A stretch of 64,000 bases of DNA from Acidimicrobiales bacterium (GTDB lineage: Bacteria > Actinomycetota > Acidimicrobiia > Acidimicrobiales > DATDAH01), in NCBI GenBank assembly GCA_016794585.1, contig JAEUJM010000044.1, positions 1-64,000 on the forward strand, read 5' to 3'. Position 1 is the stretch's first letter; each line of letters opens with the position of its first letter. Both the position numbers and the translations under genes were made by a program. The notes beneath the pieces were generated by a model, which saw nothing but the letters and a program-made list of their open reading frames with translations, did not search any database and was not told the DNA's origin. This document shows positions 16,523-28,507 of this stretch, in pieces.

Positions 16523-17524
16523 TCAGAAGCCCGCCGGCAGGAGCTTGTAGAAGTTCTCGAAGAACACGTAGAGCGTCACCGCGAAGAACGGGAAGGCGAT
16601 CAGGTAGGCGGGCCACTTCCGCCAGGCCCGGCCCACGAAGTAGGCGGTGAGCCAGATGGCCGCGGCGGCCAGGCCCCACAGGACGGCGGGCGCCTTGGAG
16701 ACGGGCTCGGTCTGCTCGGCGTCGTCGAGGGACACCTCTTCGGTGCGGGTGGGTCGCTGGCCGGGCGGGATGGGCACGGGCGCCTCCTCGAGGCGGGCCC
16801 GGATGATGATGCGCTCGCGGGCGCTGTACTTCGGGTGGCAGGCGGTGAGGGTGAGCATGTTGTCGAGCTCGCCGTCCTCGTCGAAGTCCTTGGCCTGGAG
16901 CACGTCGGTGCGGTCGGGGGTGACGATCTCGGTGCTGCGGTAGCTGTAGGTGAACTCGGCGCCGGTGACGTAGGTGACGATGATCTCGTCGCCCGACTTC
17001 ATCTCGTCGACTCGGTTGAAGGGGGCGCCGTAGGTGGTGCGGTGGCCGGCGATGGCGGCGTTGCCGGGCTGGCCGGGCATCGGCGTGCCCTCGTAGTGGC
17101 CCGGGCCGTCTTTCAGGATGCTGAGATCGACGCCCTCGTAGAAGTACCAGTCGGCCCCGATCGACGGGATCTGGATGCGGCCCACGAGTCCGCCGGTGGC
17201 CGGAGGCGGGGGGATGACCTGATCGCCCTCGGTGGCACCGGACCCACCGGCCACGGTGGTCGCAGTGGTGGGCGCCGACGTCGTGGTGGTGGCCCCGCCG
17301 GCCGCGGTCGTGGTGGTGGCGCCCGGCTCCTCGTCGCCGCCGGCGAGGGTGCCGGTCTGCTCGAACTCCGCGGCCTGCGCCTCGAACTCGCTCTCGGCGC
17401 TGCTCTGGGCCTGGCGGGTCTGGATGCCCGTGCCCCAGAGCTGGAAGGCCACGAAGGCCAGGATGAGCACGCCGGCGGTGATGAGCACCCGGCCGATGCG
17501 GGAGAGGGCCTTGGCCAGCCTCAC
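16523..17524 (-). CDS. Class E sortase
   Basis: This 333-residue membrane transpeptidase should attach surface proteins to the cell envelope. It has an N-terminal membrane helix (about 12-33), a Thr/Ala-rich linker, and the sortase barrel with catalytic His in AGHRTTYG, Cys229 in TLTACHP and a downstream Arg in SARERI. Two further hydrophobic segments near the C-terminus are visible. The fold and the TLTACHP sequence fit class E sortases of high-GC Gram-positives. GTG at 17524 is the first start compatible with the membrane helix. No substrate with a sorting signal is encoded nearby. Confidence 0.88.
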   Translation of the reverse strand: MRLAKALSRIGRVLITAGVLILAFVAFQLWGTGIQTRQAQSSAESEFEAQAAEFEQTGTLAGGDEEPGATTTTAAGGATTTTSAPTTATTVAGGSGATEGDQVIPPPPATGGLVGRIQIPSIGADWYFYEGVDLSILKDGPGHYEGTPMPGQPGNAAIAGHRTTYGAPFNRVDEMKSGDEIIVTYVTGAEFTYSYRSTEIVTPDRTDVLQAKDFDEDGELDNMLTLTACHPKYSARERIIIRARLEEAPVPIPPGQRPTRTEEVSLDDAEQTEPVSKAPAVLWGLAAAAIWLTAYFVGRAWRKWPAYLIAFPFFAVTLYVFFENFYKLLPAGF

Positions 17525-17606
17525 GGGGACACCACCCTGCGCGCTCGGCCCATAGGGAGGCGAGGCTACCCGGGGGCACGGGGGACGCGAGGGCGCGTGC
17601 GCCGCG

Positions 17607-17624
17607 GATGGGACGTTCGGCCCT
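17607..17624 (+). promoter_or_regulatory. DosR-box-like site upstream of the 17685 gene
   Basis: GATGGGACGTTCGGCCCT matches the published DosR half-site pattern (GGGAC, 4 nt, G-N-CCC). It differs from the site at 23306-23323 (read on the minus strand) at only 2 of 18 positions. It ends 60 bp before the start at 17685. Binding by the DevR-like protein encoded at 20372-21022 is inference. Confidence 0.55.
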
Positions 17625-17684: not shown

Positions 17685-18281
17685 ATGCGCATCCTCGTGA
17701 CCGAGACCCATGCCGAGGCGGCCCTGCCCGCCACCCGCCAGCTCGTCGAGGCGGGCCACGAGGTCGTGCGCTGCCGCGCCGACGACGGCCCGGCCTTCCC
17801 CTGCGCCGGCCTCGAGCCCGGCGGGTGCCCCGTCGAGGGTGGGATCGACGTCGCCCTCACCGTGCGCACCGGCCCGCCCGAGCAGCCGACCGCCCGCGAG
17901 GACGGCGCCGTGTGCGCCCTGCGCCGCCACGTGCCGCTCGTGGTGGCCGGCCCCGCCGGGCCCAACCCCTTCGAGGGGTGGTCGACGGTGGCGGTCGACG
18001 AGCGCGACCTCGTCGCTGCCTGCGAGGCGGCCGCCGCCTCGGACATCTCCCGGCTCTCCGACGCCGCCCGGGCCGAGGCGAGCCGGTTCCTGGCCAAGCG
18101 GGGCCACGACGTGGACGGTGTCGAGGTGCACACCCGGCGCTCGGCGCACGAGCTCAAGGTCGAGCTCAGGCTCCCCGACTCCCTCACCGGTCCCGAGTCC
18201 GACGCCGTGGCGGTCAGCGTGGCCGACGCCGTGCGCGCCATCGAGCCGACCATCCCCGTCATCGACGTCCGGCGCGCCTGA
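17685..18281 (+). CDS. Uncharacterised protein, paralogue of the N-domain of the 22253-23140 product
   Basis: I do not recognise a named family. The 198-residue product starts with an alpha/beta domain (MRILVTETHA, then LVEAGHEVV) and continues to VPLVVAGPAG near residue 92. This pattern is repeated in the N-terminal half of the pyridoxamine-oxidase-like protein at 22253-23140 (LHVLLVGPDA, LAGAGHTVS, VPLVLAGTPL). The C-terminal ~80 residues form a different alpha/beta region. It lacks a signal peptide or membrane helix. The upstream DosR-like box and proximity to devR suggest control by that regulator. Two cysteines (GPAFPCAG, PGGCPV) lie in the N-domain. Confidence 0.75.
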   Translation: MRILVTETHAEAALPATRQLVEAGHEVVRCRADDGPAFPCAGLEPGGCPVEGGIDVALTVRTGPPEQPTAREDGAVCALRRHVPLVVAGPAGPNPFEGWSTVAVDERDLVAACEAAAASDISRLSDAARAEASRFLAKRGHDVDGVEVHTRRSAHELKVELRLPDSLTGPESDAVAVSVADAVRAIEPTIPVIDVRRA

Positions 18282-18356
18282 GCGCCGGCGCCACCGTGAT
18301 CGTGACCGTGACCTTCGGCCCTTCCACCGGCCGCCGCCCGGCGCGACCCTGACCAC

Positions 18357-18788: not shown

Positions 18789-20321
18789 TCACCTCACGTC
18801 GGAGGGTGACGGTCCGAGGGTCGGAATCGTCGCGTCGAGGGCGGCCGACTTCGGGCCGGACGTGTCGATCTCGATGGCCTCGGGCCACGGCTCGAAGCGC
18901 GCCGCCATCCAGTCCGCCACCTCCGGTGTGGCCTCGGACGCGTCGTCACCCCGGGCCAGCCGCCGGGCGACCCGGTCCCGGCAGACCTCCGGCGGGGCCA
19001 CGCAGCGGATCGAGGTGACCCGCGCGCCGATCGCCTCCGCGGCCGCGCCTGCGGCACGTCGGCTCGCGGCGGTGCGCCATGATGCGTCGAGCACCACGGA
19101 TCCGCCGGCGCCGACGGCGGCCAGCCCTTGCCGCACCACCTCGTCGTAGACCCGGGCGGTGACGTCGGGGGCGTAGCCGCCCTGCTCGATGGCGTCCGGT
19201 GCCCTGTCCCCACCCTGCCCGTCGCTGCGACCGAGCAGCTCGCGGCGCACGTCGTCGGACCGCACCACCACCCAGTCGTGCGCCTCGCCGATGCCTCGGG
19301 CGAGGGTCGACTTCCCCGTGCCGGGGCCACCGCCGACGAGGACGACGCGAGGCTCGGCGCGGCGCAGGTGGTCGAGGGCGAGGGCGAGGAACTGGTCGAC
19401 GGTCGCCTCCTCGTCCGTGCGGGCGGCGTCCTCGGCGGGGAGTTGGTCGGCCCGTAGGGCGTGCACCTTGGCCCGCACCACGGCCCGCTGGGCCACGTAC
19501 AGGTCCGTGAGGGCGGCGGGCGGGTGCTCTCCGGCCGCCTCGCCGTAGGCGCGCCACAGGGTGGTGGCGAGGTCGGGACGGCCGAGGTGCTCGAGGTCCA
19601 TGGCCAGGAAGGCGAGGTCGGCGGCGACGTCGCCCCAACGGAGCTCGTCGGCGAAGGCGAGGCAGTCGAGGATGCGGGGGCCGTCGTCGAGGCAGAAGAT
19701 GTCGTCGGCCAGCAGGTCGCCCTGGCCGTCGACGATGTGGCCGCCGGCGACACGGCGCTCGAGCATCGGGCGGCGGGCCCGGATGCTGCGCTCGGCCAGG
19801 TCGCCCGCGGCGGCGAGCGCATCGCCCCGCTCGGCGCCGAACCCGGTGGACGCGAGCTCGGCGAGGTCCGCCTCCCACCGGGCGGCGAGCGCGTCGGGAG
19901 TCGCCACCGCCTCGATGGCGGGGGACCGGTCCGCTCGCCGGTGGAACTCCGCCATGACCTGCGCGACCGCCACCACTTCGTCGTGACCGCCGCCGGCGCG
20001 GGCCAGGGTGGCGAGGCGGCGGGCGGGGTCGAGGCGGCGCATGAGCACCAGGTGGTCGCACACCTCTCCTTCGGGCCCGCGCACCTCGGCCACTCCCAGG
20101 TACACCTCGGGGGCCAGGCGGCGGTTGAGGGCGACCTCCCGCTCGCAGTCGACCCGTCGACCCTCGACGGTGGTGTGGTCGAGGAAGTCGGTGCGGACCG
20201 GCTTGTAGCGCTTGACCGCCAGGTCGCCGTCGAAGAGCACGGTCGAGATGTGGGTCTCGGCCACCGCCGCGGGTGGCGGCGGACCCGGCGGCGCCGGTGG
20301 GCGGGCGGCCGGCTCGGTCAC
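18789..20321 (-). CDS. APH-like/AAA kinase-like fusion protein (Rv2004c-like)
   Basis: This 510-residue protein has an N-terminal aminoglycoside-phosphotransferase-like (COG2187) half and a C-terminal P-loop kinase-like half (COG0645). The Walker A sequence GGGPGTGKST lies near residue 340, followed by RSDDVRREL. The same two-domain layout and length occur in mycobacterial Rv2004c, a member of the DosR dormancy regulon. Its substrate is unknown; drug resistance should not be assumed from the APH-like fold. It starts 50 bp after the devR stop on the same strand, so it probably forms an operon with devR. Confidence 0.87.
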   Translation of the reverse strand: MTEPAARPPAPPGPPPPAAVAETHISTVLFDGDLAVKRYKPVRTDFLDHTTVEGRRVDCEREVALNRRLAPEVYLGVAEVRGPEGEVCDHLVLMRRLDPARRLATLARAGGGHDEVVAVAQVMAEFHRRADRSPAIEAVATPDALAARWEADLAELASTGFGAERGDALAAAGDLAERSIRARRPMLERRVAGGHIVDGQGDLLADDIFCLDDGPRILDCLAFADELRWGDVAADLAFLAMDLEHLGRPDLATTLWRAYGEAAGEHPPAALTDLYVAQRAVVRAKVHALRADQLPAEDAARTDEEATVDQFLALALDHLRRAEPRVVLVGGGPGTGKSTLARGIGEAHDWVVVRSDDVRRELLGRSDGQGGDRAPDAIEQGGYAPDVTARVYDEVVRQGLAAVGAGGSVVLDASWRTAASRRAAGAAAEAIGARVTSIRCVAPPEVCRDRVARRLARGDDASEATPEVADWMAARFEPWPEAIEIDTSGPKSAALDATIPTLGPSPSDVR

Positions 20322-20371: not shown

Positions 20372-21022
20372 TCAGTCGCGGTGCTCGCGCTCGCGGCGCT
20401 CGGCCAGGCGGGCGGCGAAGACCGCGGCCTCGGTGCGCCGACTCATGCCGAGCTTCGAGAGCAGGTTGCTCACGTAGTTCTTGACCGTCTTCTCGGCGAG
20501 GTACATCCGCTCGCCGATCTGGCGGTTGGTGAGGCCCTCGGCGATGAGGTCGAGGATGCGGCGCTCCTGGGCGGTGAGGCCGGCGAGCTCGTCGTCTTCG
20601 GGGGTGCGCAGGCGCTCGAGGACCTTCTGGGTGAGCGCGGGGTCGAGGAGGGACTCGCCGGCACCCACGCGGCGGATGCCGCCGACGAGGTCGGTGCCCT
20701 TCACCTGCTTGAGCAGGTAGCCGGCGGCGCCCGCCATGATGGCGCTGAACAGCGCCTCGTCGTCGGCGAACGAGGTGAGCATCAGGCACTGGATCTCGGG
20801 GTGCTTCGAGCGGATCTCGCGGCAGACCTCGATGCCGTCGCCGTCGGGCAGGCGCACGTCGAGCACGGCGACGTCCGGCCGGGTGGCGGGGATGCGGCCG
20901 TAGGCCTCCTCGGCCGTTCCCGCCTCGCCGACGACCTCGAAGTCCTCCTCGGCCTCGAGCAGGTCCCGGAGTCCCCGGCGCACCACCTCGTGGTCGTCGA
21001 GCAGGAAGACACGGACGGTCAT
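20372..21022 (-). CDS. devR: NarL/LuxR-type response regulator, DevR(DosR)-like
   Basis: This 216-residue two-component regulator has a receiver domain with Asp9/Asp10, phospho-acceptor Asp55 ([10 protein letters not shown]), Thr83 and Lys105. A C-terminal LuxR-type helix-turn-helix follows ([22 protein letters not shown], then [19 protein letters not shown]). Over its whole length it closely resembles mycobacterial DosR/DevR, the hypoxia and NO response regulator. The divergent gene encodes a matching GAF histidine kinase. Likely targets in the window are the two genes carrying GGGAC-N4-GNCCC sites. Orthology to DosR is inferred from sequence and context, not proven. Confidence 0.9.
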
Positions 21023-21105: not shown

Positions 21106-22236
21106 GTGTCCAGGCCCACGGCGCCGTCGAGCATGCAGCAGCTGCTCGACGCGGTCGCCGCCGTCGGGACCGATCTCGACCTCCCGGCCATGCTGCGACG
21201 CATCGTGGCCGCCGCCGCGCAGCTCGCCGACGCCCGCTACGCCGCCCTCGGCGTGCTCGACGAGAGCGGCACCGAGCTGGTCGAGTTCATCACCGTCGGA
21301 CTCTCCGACGAGGGGGTGCGAGCCATCGGGCACCTGCCCAAGGGGCACGGCATCCTCGGCATGCTCATCGTCGACAAGGAGCCGCTCCGGCTCCGCGACC
21401 TCAGCCAGCACCCCGACAGCTACGGGTTCCCCGCGAACCACCCGCCCATGACGTCGTTCCTGGGCGTCCCCCTGCGGGTGCGTGACGAGGTGTTCGGCAA
21501 CCTCTACCTGACCGACAAGGCCTCCGGCGAGCAGTTCACCAGCGAGGACGAGCTGTTGGTGGTGGGCCTGGCCGTGGCCGCCGGCGTGGCCATCGAGAAC
21601 GCCCGCCTCCACAACCGGGTGCAGGAGGCCGCCATCGTCGAGGACCGCGAGCGCATCGCCCGCGACCTGCACGACACCGTCATCCAGCGCCTGTTCGCCA
21701 CCGGCCTCTCACTCCAGGGCGCCATCCGCAAGGCCGAGGTGCCCGAGGTGGCCGAGCGCATCGAGGCGGCGGTCGAGGATCTCGACCTCACCGTCAAGCA
21801 CATCCGCACCGCCATCTTCGGCCTCGAGTCGTCCCGGGGGCGCACGGTCAACGGCACCCGCGCCGAGGTGATGTCGCTGTGCCGAGAGGCCGCCGGCCCG
21901 CTCGGCTTCGAGCCCCGTGTCACCTTCGACGGCCCCATCGACGCGTCCGTGCAGGGCTCGGTGGCCATCGACCTCCTCTCGGCGGTGCGTGAGGCGCTCA
22001 GCAACGTGGCCCGCCACGCCCACGCCTCCCGGGTGGACATCCACCTGCACGTGGTCGACGACACCCTCAGCCTCAGCGTGGTCGACGACGGCGTGGGCCT
22101 CCCCGACGACCTCGCGGCCGCCGGCCACGGCCTGCGCAACCTCCGGGACCGGGCCGAACGCCACGGCGGCAGCTTCCTCGTCCTGCCCGCCGTCCCGAGC
22201 GGCACCCGCGCCGAGTGGCAGGTCCCGCTGTCGTAG
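21106..22236 (+). CDS. devS: GAF-domain sensor histidine kinase, DevS/DosT-like
   Basis: This 376-residue soluble kinase has one GAF domain (about 25-168), a HisKA_3 dimerisation domain with phospho-acceptor His189 ([13 protein letters not shown]), and an ATPase domain with [14 protein letters not shown] and DDGVGLPDD. The GAF domain keeps HPPM and NLYLT. His112 and Tyr134 are 22 residues apart, the same spacing as the haem-ligand His149 and distal Tyr171 of mycobacterial DosS. This suggests a haem-based O2/NO/CO sensor. DosS and DosT have two GAF domains; this one has only one. It is divergent from the devR-like gene, its probable partner. Confidence 0.88.
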
Positions 22237-22252: not shown

Positions 22253-23140
22253 TCAGGTGCGGGCGGCGGCGGGGGTGCGGGCGGGGAGTCGGCAGCCGGC
22301 CACGACGTCGGTGGGGACGGCCAGGTAGCGGTCACGGGCGCCGTGGGCCCACCAGCCCCCGGGCTCGAAGCCGAGCTCGGCGCGGGCGGCGTCGGCGGCG
22401 TCGACCAGGCCGGAGACGTCACGGGCCACGCCCGTGACGGTGACGCTCCAACCCCAGGGCTCGTCCGCGCCCAGGGCGTCGACCTCGAAGGCCACCACGG
22501 CGTCGGTGGTGGCGGTGTGCAGGCGGCTGCCCTCGGCGGTGCGGAAGACCACCCGGTCGCGCCACAGGCGGTAGTCGACGGGCACCACGACGGGCAGGGC
22601 TCCGGCGGTGAAGCCGATGCGCCCCACCTTGGCGGTGCCGAGCAGGGCGAGGCACCGGGCCCGGGTGAGGGGCTCGCCGCCGCTCTGCTCGAAGTCGATG
22701 GGGTCGAACACGGTGCGGGAGACGTGGTCGTCGTGGTCGTGCTCGGGGAGGACGTCGGCTTGGGCGGCCCGCTGGCGCACCGCGTCCTCGACCACGAGCA
22801 CGAGGTCGGCGCCGGGGCTGGTGTAGCTGGTGGCCCAGGCCGTGTAGGGGCTGGCGAGGGGCGTGCCGGCCAGCACGAGGGGGACGCCGCTCTCGGTCAG
22901 GGTGAGGACTCGCTCCTCGCACCACGGCACCCCGACGAGGGCGTGGCCGGGGATCGAGACCACGACGTCGACGGTGTCGGGATCGAACGAGTGCCGGTCC
23001 CCGGTCGGCCACCGGAAGGGCACCCCGCTCTCGGCGGTGACGTGGCTGACCGTGTGGCCGGCGCCGGCGAGTGCGAGCGTCGCCTCACCGATCGCGTCGG
23101 CATCGGGCCCCACGAGCAGGACGTGCAGGCTGGTGCGCAT
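22253..23140 (-). CDS. Split-barrel (pyridoxamine oxidase-like) protein with N-terminal alpha/beta domain
   Basis: The C-terminal ~140 of 295 residues fit the pyridoxamine 5'-phosphate oxidase-like split barrel (LGTAKVGRIGFTAGALPVVVPV, shortened here as the conserved strand pair near residues 172-190). Members of this fold bind FMN, F420 or haem. The N-terminal ~140 residues form a domain also found alone in the protein at 17685-18281. ATG at 23140 follows GGGAG; a GTG directly before it is an alternative. It is convergent with the kinase gene, and a DosR-like box lies 165 bp upstream, so control by the DevR-like regulator is plausible. Cofactor and reaction are not determined by sequence. 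Confidence 0.82.
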   Translation of the reverse strand: MRTSLHVLLVGPDADAIGEATLALAGAGHTVSHVTAESGVPFRWPTGDRHSFDPDTVDVVVSIPGHALVGVPWCEERVLTLTESGVPLVLAGTPLASPYTAWATSYTSPGADLVLVVEDAVRQRAAQADVLPEHDHDDHVSRTVFDPIDFEQSGGEPLTRARCLALLGTAKVGRIGFTAGALPVVVPVDYRLWRDRVVFRTAEGSRLHTATTDAVVAFEVDALGADEPWGWSVTVTGVARDVSGLVDAADAARAELGFEPGGWWAHGARDRYLAVPTDVVAGCRLPARTPAAART

Positions 23141-23305
23141 CACGTCGCTCCCGGGTGGGAGTGGGCGACGGCGGATCGCGGCGGAGACGGCGCAACGCGC
23201 CGGCGGGCGTGGACGCGGCGGGTCCCGGTCCCCCCGGAGGCCGTCCCCTGTGCCGTGCTCCTTCGAGCCATGGGGCGAAGGTACGGGGGTGCGATCCGGC
23301 CCGGC

Positions 23306-23323
23306 AGGGGCGAAAGTCCCATC
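23306..23323 (-). promoter_or_regulatory. DosR-box-like site between the split-barrel gene and ccmA
   Basis: Read on the minus strand the site is GATGGGACTTTCGCCCCT, which fits the DosR half-site pattern and matches the site at 17607-17624 at 16 of 18 positions. It lies 165 bp upstream of the split-barrel gene and 82 bp upstream of ccmA on the other strand, so it could affect either direction. Confidence 0.58.
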
Positions 23324-23405: not shown

Positions 23406-24107
23406 ATGGATCCCGTCGTCCACCTCCGCGCCGCGGTCTCGCTGCTCGGGCGCTTCCCCGCCCTCGCCGGCGTCGACCTCGACGTCGGGCGGGGCGAGAC
23501 CGTCGTGTTGCAGGGCCCCAACGGCGCCGGCAAGACCACCCTCCTGCGGCTGTGCGCGGGCCTGGCGCCGGTCGCGTCGGGCACCGCGGTCGTCCTCGGC
23601 CACGACCTCACCCGCGACCGCAAGGCCGTGCGCCGCCATGTCGGCCTGCTCGGCCACCAGACCCACCTCTACGACGAGCTCACCGTCGCCGACAACGTCA
23701 CCTTCTGGGCGAAGGCCGTCCGTGCCGACGCCGCCGACGCCCAGCGGGCCATGGCCCGCCTCGGCCTCGACGGGCGCCTCCGCGACGTGGCCGTCGGTCG
23801 CCTCTCGGCCGGACAGCGGCGACGGACCGCCCTCGCCGTGCTGGTCGCCCGACGGCCCGAGCTGTGGCTGCTCGACGAGCCCCACGCCGGCCTCGACCAG
23901 GACGGACGCGACCTGCTCGACGGCCTCATCCGGGAAGCCACCGCCGCGGGGGCCACGGTGCTGATGGCCTCGCACGAGCTCGAGCGGGTCCAGGGCCTCG
24001 CCCCCCGGGTCGTGCACATCGCCGGCGGTGGCGTGGCCGGCGACGACCCCGCGCCCGAAGCGGCCGGCGAACCGGCCGACGAGGGGGAGGCCGCCCGTGT
24101 TCCGTGA
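23406..24107 (+). CDS. ccmA: Haem exporter ATP-binding protein CcmA
   Basis: This 233-residue ABC ATPase powers the CcmABCD complex that releases haem-loaded CcmE during cytochrome c maturation. Walker A GPNGAGKTT is at 37-45, the signature LSAGQRRRTALA near 137, and Walker B LWLLDEP near 158, followed by HAGLD. It is the first gene of an unbroken ccmABCDEFGHI operon, overlapping ccmB by 11 nt. A TAGCCT element 12 nt before the ATG may be its -10. Identity rests on operon context as well as sequence, since ABC ATPases are similar to one another. Confidence 0.92.
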   Translation: MDPVVHLRAAVSLLGRFPALAGVDLDVGRGETVVLQGPNGAGKTTLLRLCAGLAPVASGTAVVLGHDLTRDRKAVRRHVGLLGHQTHLYDELTVADNVTFWAKAVRADAADAQRAMARLGLDGRLRDVAVGRLSAGQRRRTALAVLVARRPELWLLDEPHAGLDQDGRDLLDGLIREATAAGATVLMASHELERVQGLAPRVVHIAGGGVAGDDPAPEAAGEPADEGEAARVP

Positions 24108-24765
24108 CGCCGCCCTCATGGCGGGCAAGGACCTGCGCCTCGAGTGGCGTTCCCGGGTGGCCACCAACCAGGTGGCGCCGTTCGCCGTGCTCGTCCTCAT
24201 CCTGTTCGCGTTCGCGCTCGACCCCGATCGGGGGATCCTCGAGCGGGCCACCGCCGGCCTCTACTGGATCACCGTGCTGTTCTCCGCCCTGCTGGCGCTG
24301 TCGCGGGCCTTCTCGGTGGAAGCCGCCGACGGCAACCGGGACGCCCTGCGCCTGTCGGGGCTCGATCCCGCCGGCATCTTCCTCGGCAAGGCGGCCGCCA
24401 TCGCCGCCGAGCTGCTGGCCCTCGAGGTGGTGCTGCTGGTCGGTGTCGTCGTGCTCTACAACGCCGACCTCTCGGGCATCGGGCTGCTCGCGGCGACCTG
24501 CGTGGCCGCGACCGCGGGGCTGGCGGCCACAGGTAGCCTCTACGGCGTGCTCGCCGCCGGCTTGCGGGTGCGGGAGACCCTGCTCCCGCTCCTGCTCCTG
24601 CCGGTTGCGGCGCCCGTCCTCATCGGGGCGACGCGGGCTTTCGAGGCTGCGTTCTCCGGCACCACGGGCGAAGGTTGGTCGTGGTGCGTCCTGCTCACCG
24701 TCTTCGCCGCCGTCTACACCGTGTTCGGGGTGCTCGCCTTCGGGCCCCTGCTGGAGGAGTCATGA
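24097..24765 (+). CDS. ccmB: Haem exporter permease CcmB
   Basis: This 222-residue membrane protein has about six hydrophobic helices and the CcmB-type opening (AGKDLRLEWRSR, then a long membrane helix). It pairs with CcmA in the complex that drives haem transfer via CcmE. GTG at 24097 is preferred because GGGGGAGG lies 7 nt upstream; it overlaps ccmA by 11 nt. An ATG at 24118 would give 215 residues. Its stop overlaps the ccmC start (ATGA). Confidence 0.9.
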   Translation: MFRDAALMAGKDLRLEWRSRVATNQVAPFAVLVLILFAFALDPDRGILERATAGLYWITVLFSALLALSRAFSVEAADGNRDALRLSGLDPAGIFLGKAAAIAAELLALEVVLLVGVVVLYNADLSGIGLLAATCVAATAGLAATGSLYGVLAAGLRVRETLLPLLLLPVAAPVLIGATRAFEAAFSGTTGEGWSWCVLLTVFAAVYTVFGVLAFGPLLEES

Positions 24766-25595
24766 CCACCACTGATCCGACGCCGGCGGCCACCGACGCC
24801 GGTCCCATGGCCACGGGGTCGGCCTTCACCCGGGTGCTCGGCATCCTCTGCCTGGTCGGCATCGCCGCCCTGCTGGCCTTCGGGCTGGTGTGGAGCGCCC
24901 CCGACGTCGTGCAGGGCGACTCGGTCCGCATCATGTACGTCCACGTGCCGGTGGCCATCGTGGCCTTCCTCGCCTTCGGGGTGACGGCCTTCGGCAGCGT
25001 GATGTACCTGTGGAAGAAGTCGCAGTTCTGGGACCTCACCGCCGGCGCCTCCGCGGAGATCGGCGTCGTCTTCACCTCCCTCTGCCTGGTCACCGGCATG
25101 CTCTGGGGCCGTCCCACCTGGGGCGTCTACTGGGTGTGGGACGCCCGCCTCACCACCACGGCGCTGCTGCTCGTCCTCTTCCTCGGGTACCTGGCCGTGC
25201 GCCGCATCCCCGCCGAGCCCGACGTCCGGGCCAAACGGGCGGCCATCGCCGGTCTGATCGCCTTCGTGGACGTCCCCATCGTCCACTACTCCACGGTGTG
25301 GTGGCGCACCCTGCACCAGGGGCCCACCATCACCCGCCTCGACCCGCAGATCGACGGCCTCATGCTCTTCAGCCTGATGCTCGGCATGGTGGTGTTCCTG
25401 CTCGTGTACCTCTGGCTGCTCGTCCACCGCTTCCGGGTGGCCTACCTCGAGGCCCAGGTCGAGGACCAGGGCCTCGACGTCGCCATCGCCGAGCGCCGCG
25501 CCGAGGCGCAGGCCGCGGGTGGCGCGGCCGCCACCCCGGCCGCCGCGGCCGCCGCCGACCCGGCCCCGCTCGTCAGCACGGGGGAGGAGCGATGA
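24762..25595 (+). CDS. ccmC: Haem-handling membrane protein CcmC
   Basis: This 277-residue protein has six membrane helices of the cytochrome c assembly family. It presents haem to CcmE. The tryptophan-rich haem loop is visible as WGRPTWGVYWVWDARLTTT, and His residues in MYVHVPVAI and PIVHYSTVWWRTLH match the conserved external haem ligands. ATG at 24762 overlaps the ccmB stop by 4 nt. The last ~40 residues are an Ala-rich tail not typical of the family, probably cytoplasmic. Confidence 0.93.
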   Translation: MTTTDPTPAATDAGPMATGSAFTRVLGILCLVGIAALLAFGLVWSAPDVVQGDSVRIMYVHVPVAIVAFLAFGVTAFGSVMYLWKKSQFWDLTAGASAEIGVVFTSLCLVTGMLWGRPTWGVYWVWDARLTTTALLLVLFLGYLAVRRIPAEPDVRAKRAAIAGLIAFVDVPIVHYSTVWWRTLHQGPTITRLDPQIDGLMLFSLMLGMVVFLLVYLWLLVHRFRVAYLEAQVEDQGLDVAIAERRAEAQAAGGAAATPAAAAAADPAPLVSTGEER

Positions 25596-25726
25596 GCCAC
25601 GCCGGCTACGTCGCCGTCTCCTACGCCCTGGTCCTCGGCTCCACCGCGTTCTACGCGGTCTGGGTGATCGTCAAGGGCCGCCGCCTCAGCCGCCAGGTGC
25701 CCCCGGAGGACCGTCGATGGCTCTGA
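25592..25726 (+). CDS. ccmD: CcmD-like small membrane protein
   Basis: This 44-residue product has a single hydrophobic helix (about 8-28) followed by a basic tail (KGRRLSRQ). Size, topology and position between ccmC and ccmE match CcmD, which in other bacteria helps release holo-CcmE from CcmABC. Sequence conservation in this family is low, so the call rests mainly on context. The ATG overlaps the ccmC stop by 4 nt and its 3' end overlaps ccmE by 10 nt. Confidence 0.75.
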   Translation: MSHAGYVAVSYALVLGSTAFYAVWVIVKGRRLSRQVPPEDRRWL

Positions 25727-26319
25727 CCCCACCGCCCCCGCCGCCGTCGGCCACCGCCGACGAGTCCGACGAGGACCTCCCCCCGGTCGACCTCACGCCC
25801 CGCGCCGGACGGGCACGGGGCAAGCGCCGCCTGCCCGTGATCCTCGCCCTCGTCGTGGTCGTCGCCGCCCTGATCTTCATCGCCGCCCAGAGCCTCGGCT
25901 CGGCCACCTTGTTCTTCTACAACGTCGACGAGGCGGTCGCGAACAAGGACGACCTGGGTGACGACCGCTTCCGCCTCCAGGGCACCGTCGAGGAGGGCTC
26001 GGTCCAAGAGTCCGACGACCGGGTCGAGTTCGTGGTGTTCTTCGGCGGCGCCGAGGTGGACGTGGTCCACCAAGGCGACCCGCCCGAGCTCTTCCAGCCC
26101 AACATCCCCGTGGTGCTCGAGGGCAACTGGGACGGCGACCACTTCGCCTCCGACCGCATCATGGTGAAGCACTCCTCGTCCTACGCCGAGGACAACCCCG
26201 ACCGGGTCGAGCCGGTCGACGCACCGGCCGCCGACGGCGTCACGGACAGTGGGTCGTCCGCGCCGTCCGGCCCCGACGAGTCGTCGGGGGGCGACGCCGC
26301 CGAGTCCGGCAACCCGTGA
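25717..26319 (+). CDS. ccmE: Cytochrome c-type biogenesis haem chaperone CcmE
   Basis: This 200-residue protein carries haem from CcmC to CcmF. It has a proline/acid-rich cytoplasmic N-terminus, a membrane anchor at about 38-58, and an OB-fold domain. The covalent haem motif is His152-x3-Tyr156 in VKHSSSYAE, the family's HxxxY. The N-terminal extension of ~35 residues before the anchor and the acidic Ser/Gly tail are longer than in proteobacterial CcmE. The ATG lies inside ccmD, so translation is coupled. Confidence 0.94.
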   Translation: MALTPPPPPPSATADESDEDLPPVDLTPRAGRARGKRRLPVILALVVVVAALIFIAAQSLGSATLFFYNVDEAVANKDDLGDDRFRLQGTVEEGSVQESDDRVEFVVFFGGAEVDVVHQGDPPELFQPNIPVVLEGNWDGDHFASDRIMVKHSSSYAEDNPDRVEPVDAPAADGVTDSGSSAPSGPDESSGGDAAESGNP

Positions 26320-26326
26320 CGCGGCC

Positions 26327-28507
26327 ATGAACGTCGCTCTCGGCTCGGCCGCGCTGCTGTTCGGCCTCGGGGCCTCCGTGCTGGGTGCCGGCACCCTCGC
26401 GGTCGGGCTCGCCAAGAAGCGGCCCAAGCTGCTCGTGCTGGGCCGCAGCTACGCCCTGCTCGCGTTCCTCGGGGCCCTCGTGGCGTTCGCGGTCATGGAG
26501 CGCGCCCTCATCACCCGGGACTTCACGGTGGCCTACGTCGCCGAGAACGGCAGCTCGAAGACCCCCGCCATCTACAACTTCGCCACCCTCTGGGCGGCCC
26601 TCGAGGGCTCGATCCTGCTCTGGGCGCTGGTGCTCACCGGCTACCTGATGGCCATGATGCGCAAGTTCCGCCACCGCCAGACCGACCCGCTGGTGGGCTG
26701 GGCCAACCTCACCATGTTCGTGGTGTGCATCTTCTTCTTCGGGCTGATGGTCACGGTGGCCAAGCCCTTCCTGCCCTTCGACCCCGGGCCGGGCTTCGAC
26801 GGGCCGGGCCCGAACCCCCTGCTCCAGAACCACATCCTCATGGCCTTCCACCCACCGATGCTCTACCTGGGCTACGTCGGGTTCACCGTGCCCTTCGCCT
26901 TCGCCATCGCCGCGCTGGCCACCGGTCGCCTCGGCGAGGGCTGGCTGGTCGAGACCCGGCGCTGGACCCTGTTCGCCTGGGGCTTCCTGACGGTCGGCAT
27001 CGTCCTCGGGGCGTGGTGGTCCTACGAGGTGCTGGGCTGGGGCGGCTACTGGGCGTGGGACCCGGTGGAGAACGCCTCGTTCCTGCCGTGGCTCACCGGC
27101 ACGGCCTACCTGCACTCGGTGATGGTCCAGGAGCGCCGCGGCATGTTGCGGGTGTGGAACCTGTCGCTCCTGTGCGCCACGTTCTCGCTCACCATCCTCG
27201 GCACCTTCCTCACGCGCTCGGGGGTGCTCGACTCGGTGCACGCGTTCACCGAGTCCGGCATCGGGCCGGCCATCCTCGGGTTCTTCGCCTTCATCGTCGC
27301 GGTCACCGTCGGCCTCATCGCCTGGCGGGGCGACACGTTGCGGTCGCCCGGGCGCATCGACTCGCCGATGTCGCGCGAGGGCGCCTTCATGGCCAACAAC
27401 CTCCTGTTCGCGGCCTTCGCCTTCGTGGTGCTCCTCGGCACCGTGTTCCCTCTGCTGGTCGAGGCCGTCAACGGCGACCGCATCTCGGTGGGCGTCCCCT
27501 ACTTCAACCGCATGACGATGCCCATCGGGCTCACGCTGCTGTTCCTCATGGCCATCGCCCCGGTGCTCCCGTGGCGCAAGGCCAGCGGGGAGCTGCTGCG
27601 CCACCGCCTGTACTGGCCGATGTGGGTGGCCACCGCCTCGCTCGTTTTCGCCGTGGTCATCGGCGCCCGAGGGCTGGCCCCACTCGTCGCGTTCTTCCTC
27701 GGCGGGCTGGCCGCTGGCTCGGCCCTCCGCCAGATCGTGCTCGCCACGCGGCGCCAGGGGTGGCGCGGACTGGTGGGTCGGGCCAACGGCGGCATGATCG
27801 TGCACCTGGGCGTGGTCATCATCGCCGTCGCCTTCGCCGCCAGCCAGAGCTTCGCCCACCAGGGTGAGTTCCGCCTCTCGCCCGGCGACTCGGCGGTCGT
27901 GGCCGGTCACCGCATCACCTACCTCGGGGTCGAGACGGTCGAGCGTCCCGAGAAGGTCGTGGTCCAGGCGCGGGTGCGCGTCGACGACGACGGGGTGTTC
28001 ACGCCTGCCCTCAACCGGTTCCAGTTCGGTGGCCAGGCCATCGGCACGCCGTCGGTCCGGGTCGGGTTCGCCGATGACGTCTACCTCGCCCTGCTGGCCC
28101 TGCCTGGCGAGGAGGGCTCGGTGACGGGCACGGGCAGCGACACCAGCGACGCGCTGGCCGACGCCGCCGGCGACGGCTCGGAGGACGGCGCGGCGGCGGA
28201 CGGCGCCGACGCCGGGGACGGCGATGCCGCCGCCGGCCAGCCCGCGGCCGACGCCGTGCTGCTGCGGGTGATCGTCCAGCCCATGATCGTCTGGCTCTGG
28301 ATCGGCGGCGGGGTGATGGCCCTGGGCACGATCCTCGCGGCCTGGCCCGGGCGCCGGCGGCGCCCCACCGATCCGGTTTCCGCCCCTGTCGAGGTCGCCG
28401 CCGGCGGCCCCGACGCCGGGACCGATGACGGCGACGGCGGCGACCAGGGCGGAGGGGACGAGGGCGACGACACCTCGGCCCCCGAACCTGCGACGGTGGG
28501 CTCGTGA
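26327..28507 (+). CDS. ccmF: Cytochrome c haem lyase subunit CcmF
   Basis: This 726-residue polytopic membrane protein attaches haem to apocytochrome c. The WWD domain is clear as GWGGYWAWDPVENAS near residue 240, and conserved His residues occur in NHILMAFHPPMLYLG and SVHAFTESG. About 13-15 hydrophobic segments are present. A Gly/Asp/Ala-rich acidic insertion (about 600-640) and an acidic tail are unusual compared with proteobacterial CcmF. The ATG at 26327 is 7 nt after the ccmE stop; the stop overlaps the next start (GTGA). Confidence 0.95.
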   Translation: MNVALGSAALLFGLGASVLGAGTLAVGLAKKRPKLLVLGRSYALLAFLGALVAFAVMERALITRDFTVAYVAENGSSKTPAIYNFATLWAALEGSILLWALVLTGYLMAMMRKFRHRQTDPLVGWANLTMFVVCIFFFGLMVTVAKPFLPFDPGPGFDGPGPNPLLQNHILMAFHPPMLYLGYVGFTVPFAFAIAALATGRLGEGWLVETRRWTLFAWGFLTVGIVLGAWWSYEVLGWGGYWAWDPVENASFLPWLTGTAYLHSVMVQERRGMLRVWNLSLLCATFSLTILGTFLTRSGVLDSVHAFTESGIGPAILGFFAFIVAVTVGLIAWRGDTLRSPGRIDSPMSREGAFMANNLLFAAFAFVVLLGTVFPLLVEAVNGDRISVGVPYFNRMTMPIGLTLLFLMAIAPVLPWRKASGELLRHRLYWPMWVATASLVFAVVIGARGLAPLVAFFLGGLAAGSALRQIVLATRRQGWRGLVGRANGGMIVHLGVVIIAVAFAASQSFAHQGEFRLSPGDSAVVAGHRITYLGVETVERPEKVVVQARVRVDDDGVFTPALNRFQFGGQAIGTPSVRVGFADDVYLALLALPGEEGSVTGTGSDTSDALADAAGDGSEDGAAADGADAGDGDAAAGQPAADAVLLRVIVQPMIVWLWIGGGVMALGTILAAWPGRRRRPTDPVSAPVEVAAGGPDAGTDDGDGGDQGGGDEGDDTSAPEPATVGS

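Follow-up and report, generated by a model that had tools for sequence, protein, structure and literature searches.

A single-GAF sensor histidine kinase gene lies at 21106-22236 of the window (the whole stretch of DNA analysed, 64,000 nucleotides), beside a divergent gene for a DosR/DevR-type response regulator. The genes of this locus and the main parts of the kinase are as follows.

18789-20321, minus strand: protein of 510 aa with a C-terminal AAA_33 ATPase domain (Pfam AAA_33)
20372-21022, minus strand: DosR/DevR-type response regulator, transcribed away from the kinase gene (phmmer, 3c3w (DevR) at E 1.7e-77, next match 2.4e-46)
21106-22236, plus strand: single-GAF sensor histidine kinase, 376 aa, GTG start (open reading frame; Pfam GAF, HisKA_3, HATPase_c)
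21169-21618, plus strand: haem-type GAF domain of the kinase, residues 22-171, matching DosS/DosT GAF-A (phmmer; AlphaFold2 model)
21541-21726, plus strand: a single predicted helix, residues 146-207, which starts where the GAF domain ends and continues as the dimerisation helix with His189 (AlphaFold2 full-length model)
21670-21672, plus strand: codon of His189, the predicted autophosphorylation site (HisKA_3; invariant in a 47-row alignment)
22253-23143, minus strand: pyridoxamine-5'-phosphate-oxidase-fold (PPOX) gene, start chosen by eye (PF12900, E 8e-22)

Pfam divides the kinase into GAF (residues 24-164), HisKA_3 (181-242) and HATPase_c (288-375) domains and finds no second GAF, in agreement with the initial annotation, which had described one GAF fused to a kinase core. 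The HisKA_3 and HATPase core is that of DosS and DosT, and its best matches to these kinases in the PDB were 3zxo (DosS, 3e-17) and 3zxq (DosT, 3e-15). Since the two N-terminal GAF domains of DosS and DosT are represented here by one, the kinase falls outside strict DosS/DosT membership. MadS, NarX and LiaS were rejected as identities for the kinase, the NCBIfam models scoring far under their cut-offs.

The regulator at 20372-21022 combines a receiver with a LuxR-type helix-turn-helix (Pfam Response_reg and GerE) and is closest to DevR; the MadR and NarL models score far under their cut-offs and were set aside. Because its own gene scores 454 bits in the source genome and the next-best 151 bits, we take it to be the sole DosR-like regulator of that genome. 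A DosR-like regulator was present within the fetched locus in 63 of the 80 nearest relatives, many of these stretches ending at contig ends; it lies upstream of the kinase and divergent from it in 36 loci, and where the two genes share a strand it precedes the kinase in 9 and follows it in 16. The other neighbours are less constant: a homologue of the 510-aa AAA_33 protein, which may be Rv2004c-like, occurs in 5 of the 80 relatives' loci, and one of the PPOX-fold gene, which is convergent with the kinase, in 30.

Comparison of the GAF domain with solved structures by phmmer gave DosS GAF-A variants and DosT GAF-A as the top five matches (E 4e-50 to 2e-48, among them 2y8h at 4e-50, 2w3d at 5e-49 and 2vzw at 2e-48), the best-scoring being a DosS E87G mutant structure; the remaining GAF domains matched at E 1.8e-10 or weaker. 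The initial annotation had also proposed a comparison of the predicted structure with DosS GAF-A, and this bore out the resemblance. An AlphaFold2 model of the domain (pLDDT 87, pTM 0.83; 48-row alignment, query included, drawn from 80 loci) superimposes on DosS GAF-A (2y79_B) with a Z-score of 24.1 and an rmsd of 1.3 A over 146 residues at 57% identity, and on DosT GAF-A with a Z-score of 23.5. The best GAF from outside DosS and DosT reached Z 18.2 (2.7 A), a ranking with which Foldseek concurs, and mycobacterial DevS GAF-B reached Z 14.7. Both the phmmer and the predicted-fold matches to the haem GAF-A domain thus stand well above those to other GAFs. Since the model is far closer to GAF-A than to GAF-B, the predicted fold identifies the single GAF as the counterpart of GAF-A, not of GAF-B.

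Kinase matches were obtained in 150 of 296 genomes of the class (at 1e-40) and in 44 of 198 genomes of the phylum (at 1e-50), not all of them single-GAF DosS-type kinases; both searches were made without the HPPM peptide pattern. Score cut-offs applied to both the GAF and the kinase left 169 relatives, comprising 150 one-GAF and 19 two-GAF proteins from two collections in which some species may count twice. Single-GAF relatives come from many Acidimicrobiia and from loci titled Dormiibacterota, Frankiaceae and Nitriliruptoraceae. The single-GAF form is therefore the common one among the sampled relatives and not a curiosity of the source genome. One-GAF and two-GAF forms interleave on trees rooted by midpoint only, with 4 changes between the forms on the kinase-domain tree (3-5 in bootstraps) and 8 on the GAF-domain tree (7-8 in bootstraps). 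When seven GAF-B stretches were compared with the other 18, five matched most of them significantly and two matched only some. We conclude that the GAF architecture was altered more than once among these relatives.

The residues of the predicted haem pocket map to the following codons.

21250-21252, plus strand: Gly49, gas-channel position (equivalent to DosS Glu87 and DosT Gly85; alignment)
21439-21441, plus strand: His112, predicted proximal haem ligand (equivalent to DosS His149; alignment, H in 169/169 relatives)
21505-21507, plus strand: Tyr134, predicted distal-pocket Tyr (equivalent to DosS Tyr171; alignment, Y in 169/169 relatives)

His112 opens the motif HPPM and Tyr134 lies within LYLT, 22 residues further on. 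The earlier observation that this spacing equals that of His149 and Tyr171 in DosS is confirmed by a gapless alignment, which pairs the residues directly. Every one of the 169 relatives has both, and many other domain residues are likewise invariant across the family; because a peptide pattern containing the HPPM His helped to collect the 80 loci, conservation of the His among them is not independent. In DosS, H149 is the haem ligand and Y171F loses gas discrimination (PMC4082495).

The likeness to DosS does not extend to the rest of the pocket. The channel position carries Gly49, the DosT state, in place of the channel-blocking Glu87 of DosS, and the distal His89 of DosS is replaced by Leu51, so that the distal network of DosS is not intact. 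Judged from these residues, the distal pocket is DosT-like rather than DosS-like. Gly is found at position 49 in 149 of the 150 relatives with one GAF and in 18 of the 19 with two, and Glu, found once, is the exception within this sample. The consequences of this position have been described for the mycobacterial proteins: Glu87 of DosS is proposed to hinder the gas channel, DosS E87G and E87A form stable oxy complexes in which the domain holds O2, and DosT G85E becomes autoxidisable, although investigators disagree on the extent to which DosS itself is autoxidisable (PMC4082495). These data bear on the possibility that the kinase is a haem redox sensor, as proposed for DosS, in which O2 oxidises the iron rather than staying bound. 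Its GAF belongs to the same GAF-A family, and DosS fragments without GAF-B have a less stable oxy complex (PMC4082495); however, Gly49 stands where a Glu was proposed to cause autoxidation (PMC4082495), and with Glu in just 1 of 169 relatives we consider redox sensing unlikely.

How informative the His/Tyr pair is by itself was assessed within the source genome, where searches with PF13185 and PF01590 located 17 GAF-domain places, 2 of which yielded no alignment and several only a partial one. His and Tyr occur together at the pocket columns in 2 of the 17, namely in the kinase at 21106 and in the GAF-A domain of another kinase, which has two GAFs; some of the other GAFs have just the His or just the Tyr. 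The pair is also kept in three single-GAF paralogues (L155-L157) that are 34-38% identical and whose adjoining regulators are only 40-45% identical to the DosR-like gene at 20372-21022 (43 loci parsed, L094-L099 left out; a fixed regular expression found the motif in 40 of the 43). Because such distant paralogues keep it, the pair marks a GAF subfamily and is by itself no proof of haem. The His-to-Tyr spacing alone is thus weak, non-discriminating evidence for haem, and the whole-domain match to DosS/DosT GAF-A is the stronger evidence. The initial annotation had suggested a minimal haem sensor with a DosS-like pocket: the assignment as a DosS/DosT-type single-GAF kinase holds, on sequence, predicted fold, DosR-type partner and family conservation, while its spacing argument does not discriminate and the pocket, beyond the His/Tyr pair, points to DosT.

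The same paralogues, together with the replacement of the distal His by Leu, would fit a GAF domain without haem that senses another small ligand or merely serves as a dimerisation or linker domain. Against this stand the 57% identity and 1.3 A fit to a haem GAF-A, the clear gap to other GAFs and the invariance of His, Tyr and many other residues across the family, which make a haem-less domain quite improbable. Haem should be available to the cell, since the genome encodes ferrochelatase.

We next consider how the DosT-like haem domain that we favour may be coupled to the kinase. A full-length AlphaFold2 model (pLDDT 85, pTM 0.60; 47-row alignment, query included, drawn from 80 loci), which as a monomer does not place the domains firmly, predicts the continuous helix of residues 146-207. 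In 124 of the 150 single-GAF relatives, the conserved acidic residue at the helix start and the phospho-histidine are 41 residues apart; in 12 of the 19 two-GAF relatives the spacing is the same when measured from GAF-B. In the remainder the pattern was not matched (11 single-GAF and 6 two-GAF rows), the phospho-histidine motif was absent (4 and 1 rows) or the distance differed (11 single-GAF rows). Because the spacing matches, the haem-type GAF appears to occupy the seat that GAF-B has in DosS. In DosS, GAF-B sharpens the discrimination of CO and NO from O2 binding and slows autoxidation; what GAF-B does in the full-length protein is, according to the same review, not explained by its crystal structures (PMC4082495). 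A kinase without GAF-B may therefore behave differently from DosS.

The second, DosS-like kinase of the source genome has two GAF domains (G000 C9:168253-169857; L009:8245-9918), and its GAF-A is 62% identical to the GAF of the kinase at 21106. It is without an adjoining DosR, since the sole DosR-like regulator found lies in the window. Some 2 kb away from the start of the two-GAF kinase gene there is a gene for a bacterial globin (L009:11670-12062). M. tuberculosis has DosS plus a distant DosT, an arrangement that the kinase pair of this genome resembles by analogy, with the DosR-linked kinase being the one reduced in architecture. O2 sensing could be the task of the two-GAF paralogue, near which the globin gene lies, leaving the kinase at 21106 as a haem sensor of NO or CO, gases that DosS and DosT both bind (PMC4082495), but the open DosT-like channel and the conserved distal Tyr make this just as improbable as a GAF without haem. 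None of the genes adjoining the kinase was noted as NO-specific.

DosR-box-like palindromes were sought with a combined pattern, GGGMCNWWNGKCCC, which draws on the mycobacterial DosR-box half-sites and on the OsdR consensus, and with the reversed pattern as a control. The Streptomyces OsdR consensus is AGGGCCGATCGGCCCT (PMC5069765). DosR-type boxes are present in the source genome, with 29 sites for GGGMCNWWNGKCCC compared with 6 for the reversed control, many of them unplaced, a rough gene caller having set them inside doubtful open reading frames. The 80 relatives' loci (724 kb) contain 38 boxes compared with 1 control site, and 26 of the 38 lie between called genes, intergenic bases making up 22% of these loci. 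Three sites occur in the window.

17610-17623, no strand assigned: DosR-box-like palindrome without mismatch, in the interval that separates ORF 17685 from the sortase gene
18308-18321, no strand assigned: DosR-box-like palindrome with 1 mismatch, upstream of ORF 18357
23307-23320, no strand assigned: DosR-box-like palindrome with 1 mismatch, in the interval that separates the ccm operon from the PPOX gene

Within the 64-kb window the boxes are not enriched (3 sites with at most 1 mismatch, compared with 4.4 expected by shuffling), and all three are intergenic. Support for DosR-type boxes comes from the intergenic placement of these three sites together with the counts for the relatives and the whole genome. 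A scan of the stretch that separates the regulator gene from the kinase gene in 33 of the 36 divergent loci (those with a gap of at most 600 bases) revealed no conserved box, the ratio to the rest of the loci being 0.71, and for this reason autoregulation is not claimed. In seven relatives (L015, L018, L035, L054, L062, L083 and L088) a PPOX-like start is preceded by a box at a distance of 28-123 bases; the PPOX identity comes from a tblastn match in six of these and was judged by eye in L083.

Taken together, the best reading of the locus, and one that we consider likely, is a predicted DosT-like haem sensor kinase that has one GAF and a DosR-type regulator as its partner. It would be a soluble, haem-based gas sensor of DosS/DosT type whose GAF-A equivalent is attached straight to the kinase, without GAF-B. 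His112 would hold the haem, and Tyr134 on the distal side would contact the bound gas. With Gly49 the gas channel stays open, like that of DosT, and the ferrous haem is therefore expected to form a stable O2 complex. By analogy with DosT, the O2-bound haem would keep the kinase off, the sign of the response being set by this analogy, and loss of O2, or binding of NO or CO, would switch it on. The switching change would travel along the one continuous helix to His189, from which the phosphate would pass to the adjoining DosR-type regulator, presumably acting at GGGMCNWWNGKCCC boxes to control the putative target genes of a DosR-type regulon.

Among known systems, DosT of M. tuberculosis shares the haem GAF fold, proximal His, distal Tyr, channel Gly, HisKA_3 kinase and DosR partner; it differs in having two GAFs, whereas the kinase at 21106 has one, adjoins its regulator and has Leu at the distal-His position. 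In M. tuberculosis the dosT gene lies apart from dosR. DosS/DevS shares membership of the GAF-A family, the His149/Tyr171 equivalents and an adjoining DosR-type regulator, but has Glu87 and GAF-B where the present kinase has Gly49 and no GAF-B; the DosS and DosR genes form an operon in M. tuberculosis, whereas the genes here are divergent. OsdK/OsdR of Streptomyces coelicolor is likewise a non-mycobacterial DosS/DosR-type pair, with a GGGCC-N4-GGCCC box (PMC5069765), although osdR-osdK is an operon, unlike the divergent genes at 21106. PolS/PolR of Microlunatus phosphovorus is a DevS/DevR-like pair from an environmental actinobacterium, but PolS has two GAF domains (PMC6754071). Searches of an open-access library turned up no publication that deals with a DosS-type haem kinase of one GAF. 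The single-GAF CvnF8 was considered and rejected, being described as an accessory protein and not a DosS-type kinase (PMC13343842).

These comparisons raise the possibility that single-GAF haem kinases, whose haem GAF sits where GAF-B would and acts on the kinase without an intermediary, control the DosR-type hypoxia/dormancy regulons of Acidimicrobiia and of some further lineages of actinobacteria and Dormibacterota, a proposal that could equally well prove right or wrong. If true, GAF-B would be a movable add-on that is not essential to DosS-type signalling. A natural family without GAF-B but with the same helix spacing offers a ready experiment on its role: in a soluble kinase of 376 residues, gas binding would have to pass straight to the kinase. 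The locus also points to DosR-type control in environmental, non-mycobacterial Actinomycetota. The single-GAF kinase represents a known type of sensor in a variant form that is widespread and common in its class.

Several minor observations concern the surroundings of the boxes. A class E sortase gene (16526-17560) is divergent from ORF 17685-18281, whose 198-aa product has no Pfam or NCBIfam match. A domain shared between this product and the N-terminal part of the PPOX protein was considered but is not claimed (25% identity over 106 residues, E 0.003, one comparison). ORF 18357 gives a weak sll1863-type stress-protein match, under the cut-off. Beyond the PPOX gene, 23406-28507 holds cytochrome c maturation genes (ABC ATPase, CcmB, CcmC-like and CcmF) that begin 86 bases past the DosR-box-like site. 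Elsewhere in the genome (L160; G000 C1:222700-228700), two WS/DGAT genes are adjacent, with a box 74 bases before one and a further box at the 3' end of the next. A gene of the same WS/DGAT family, tgs1, is a member of the mycobacterial DosR regulon.
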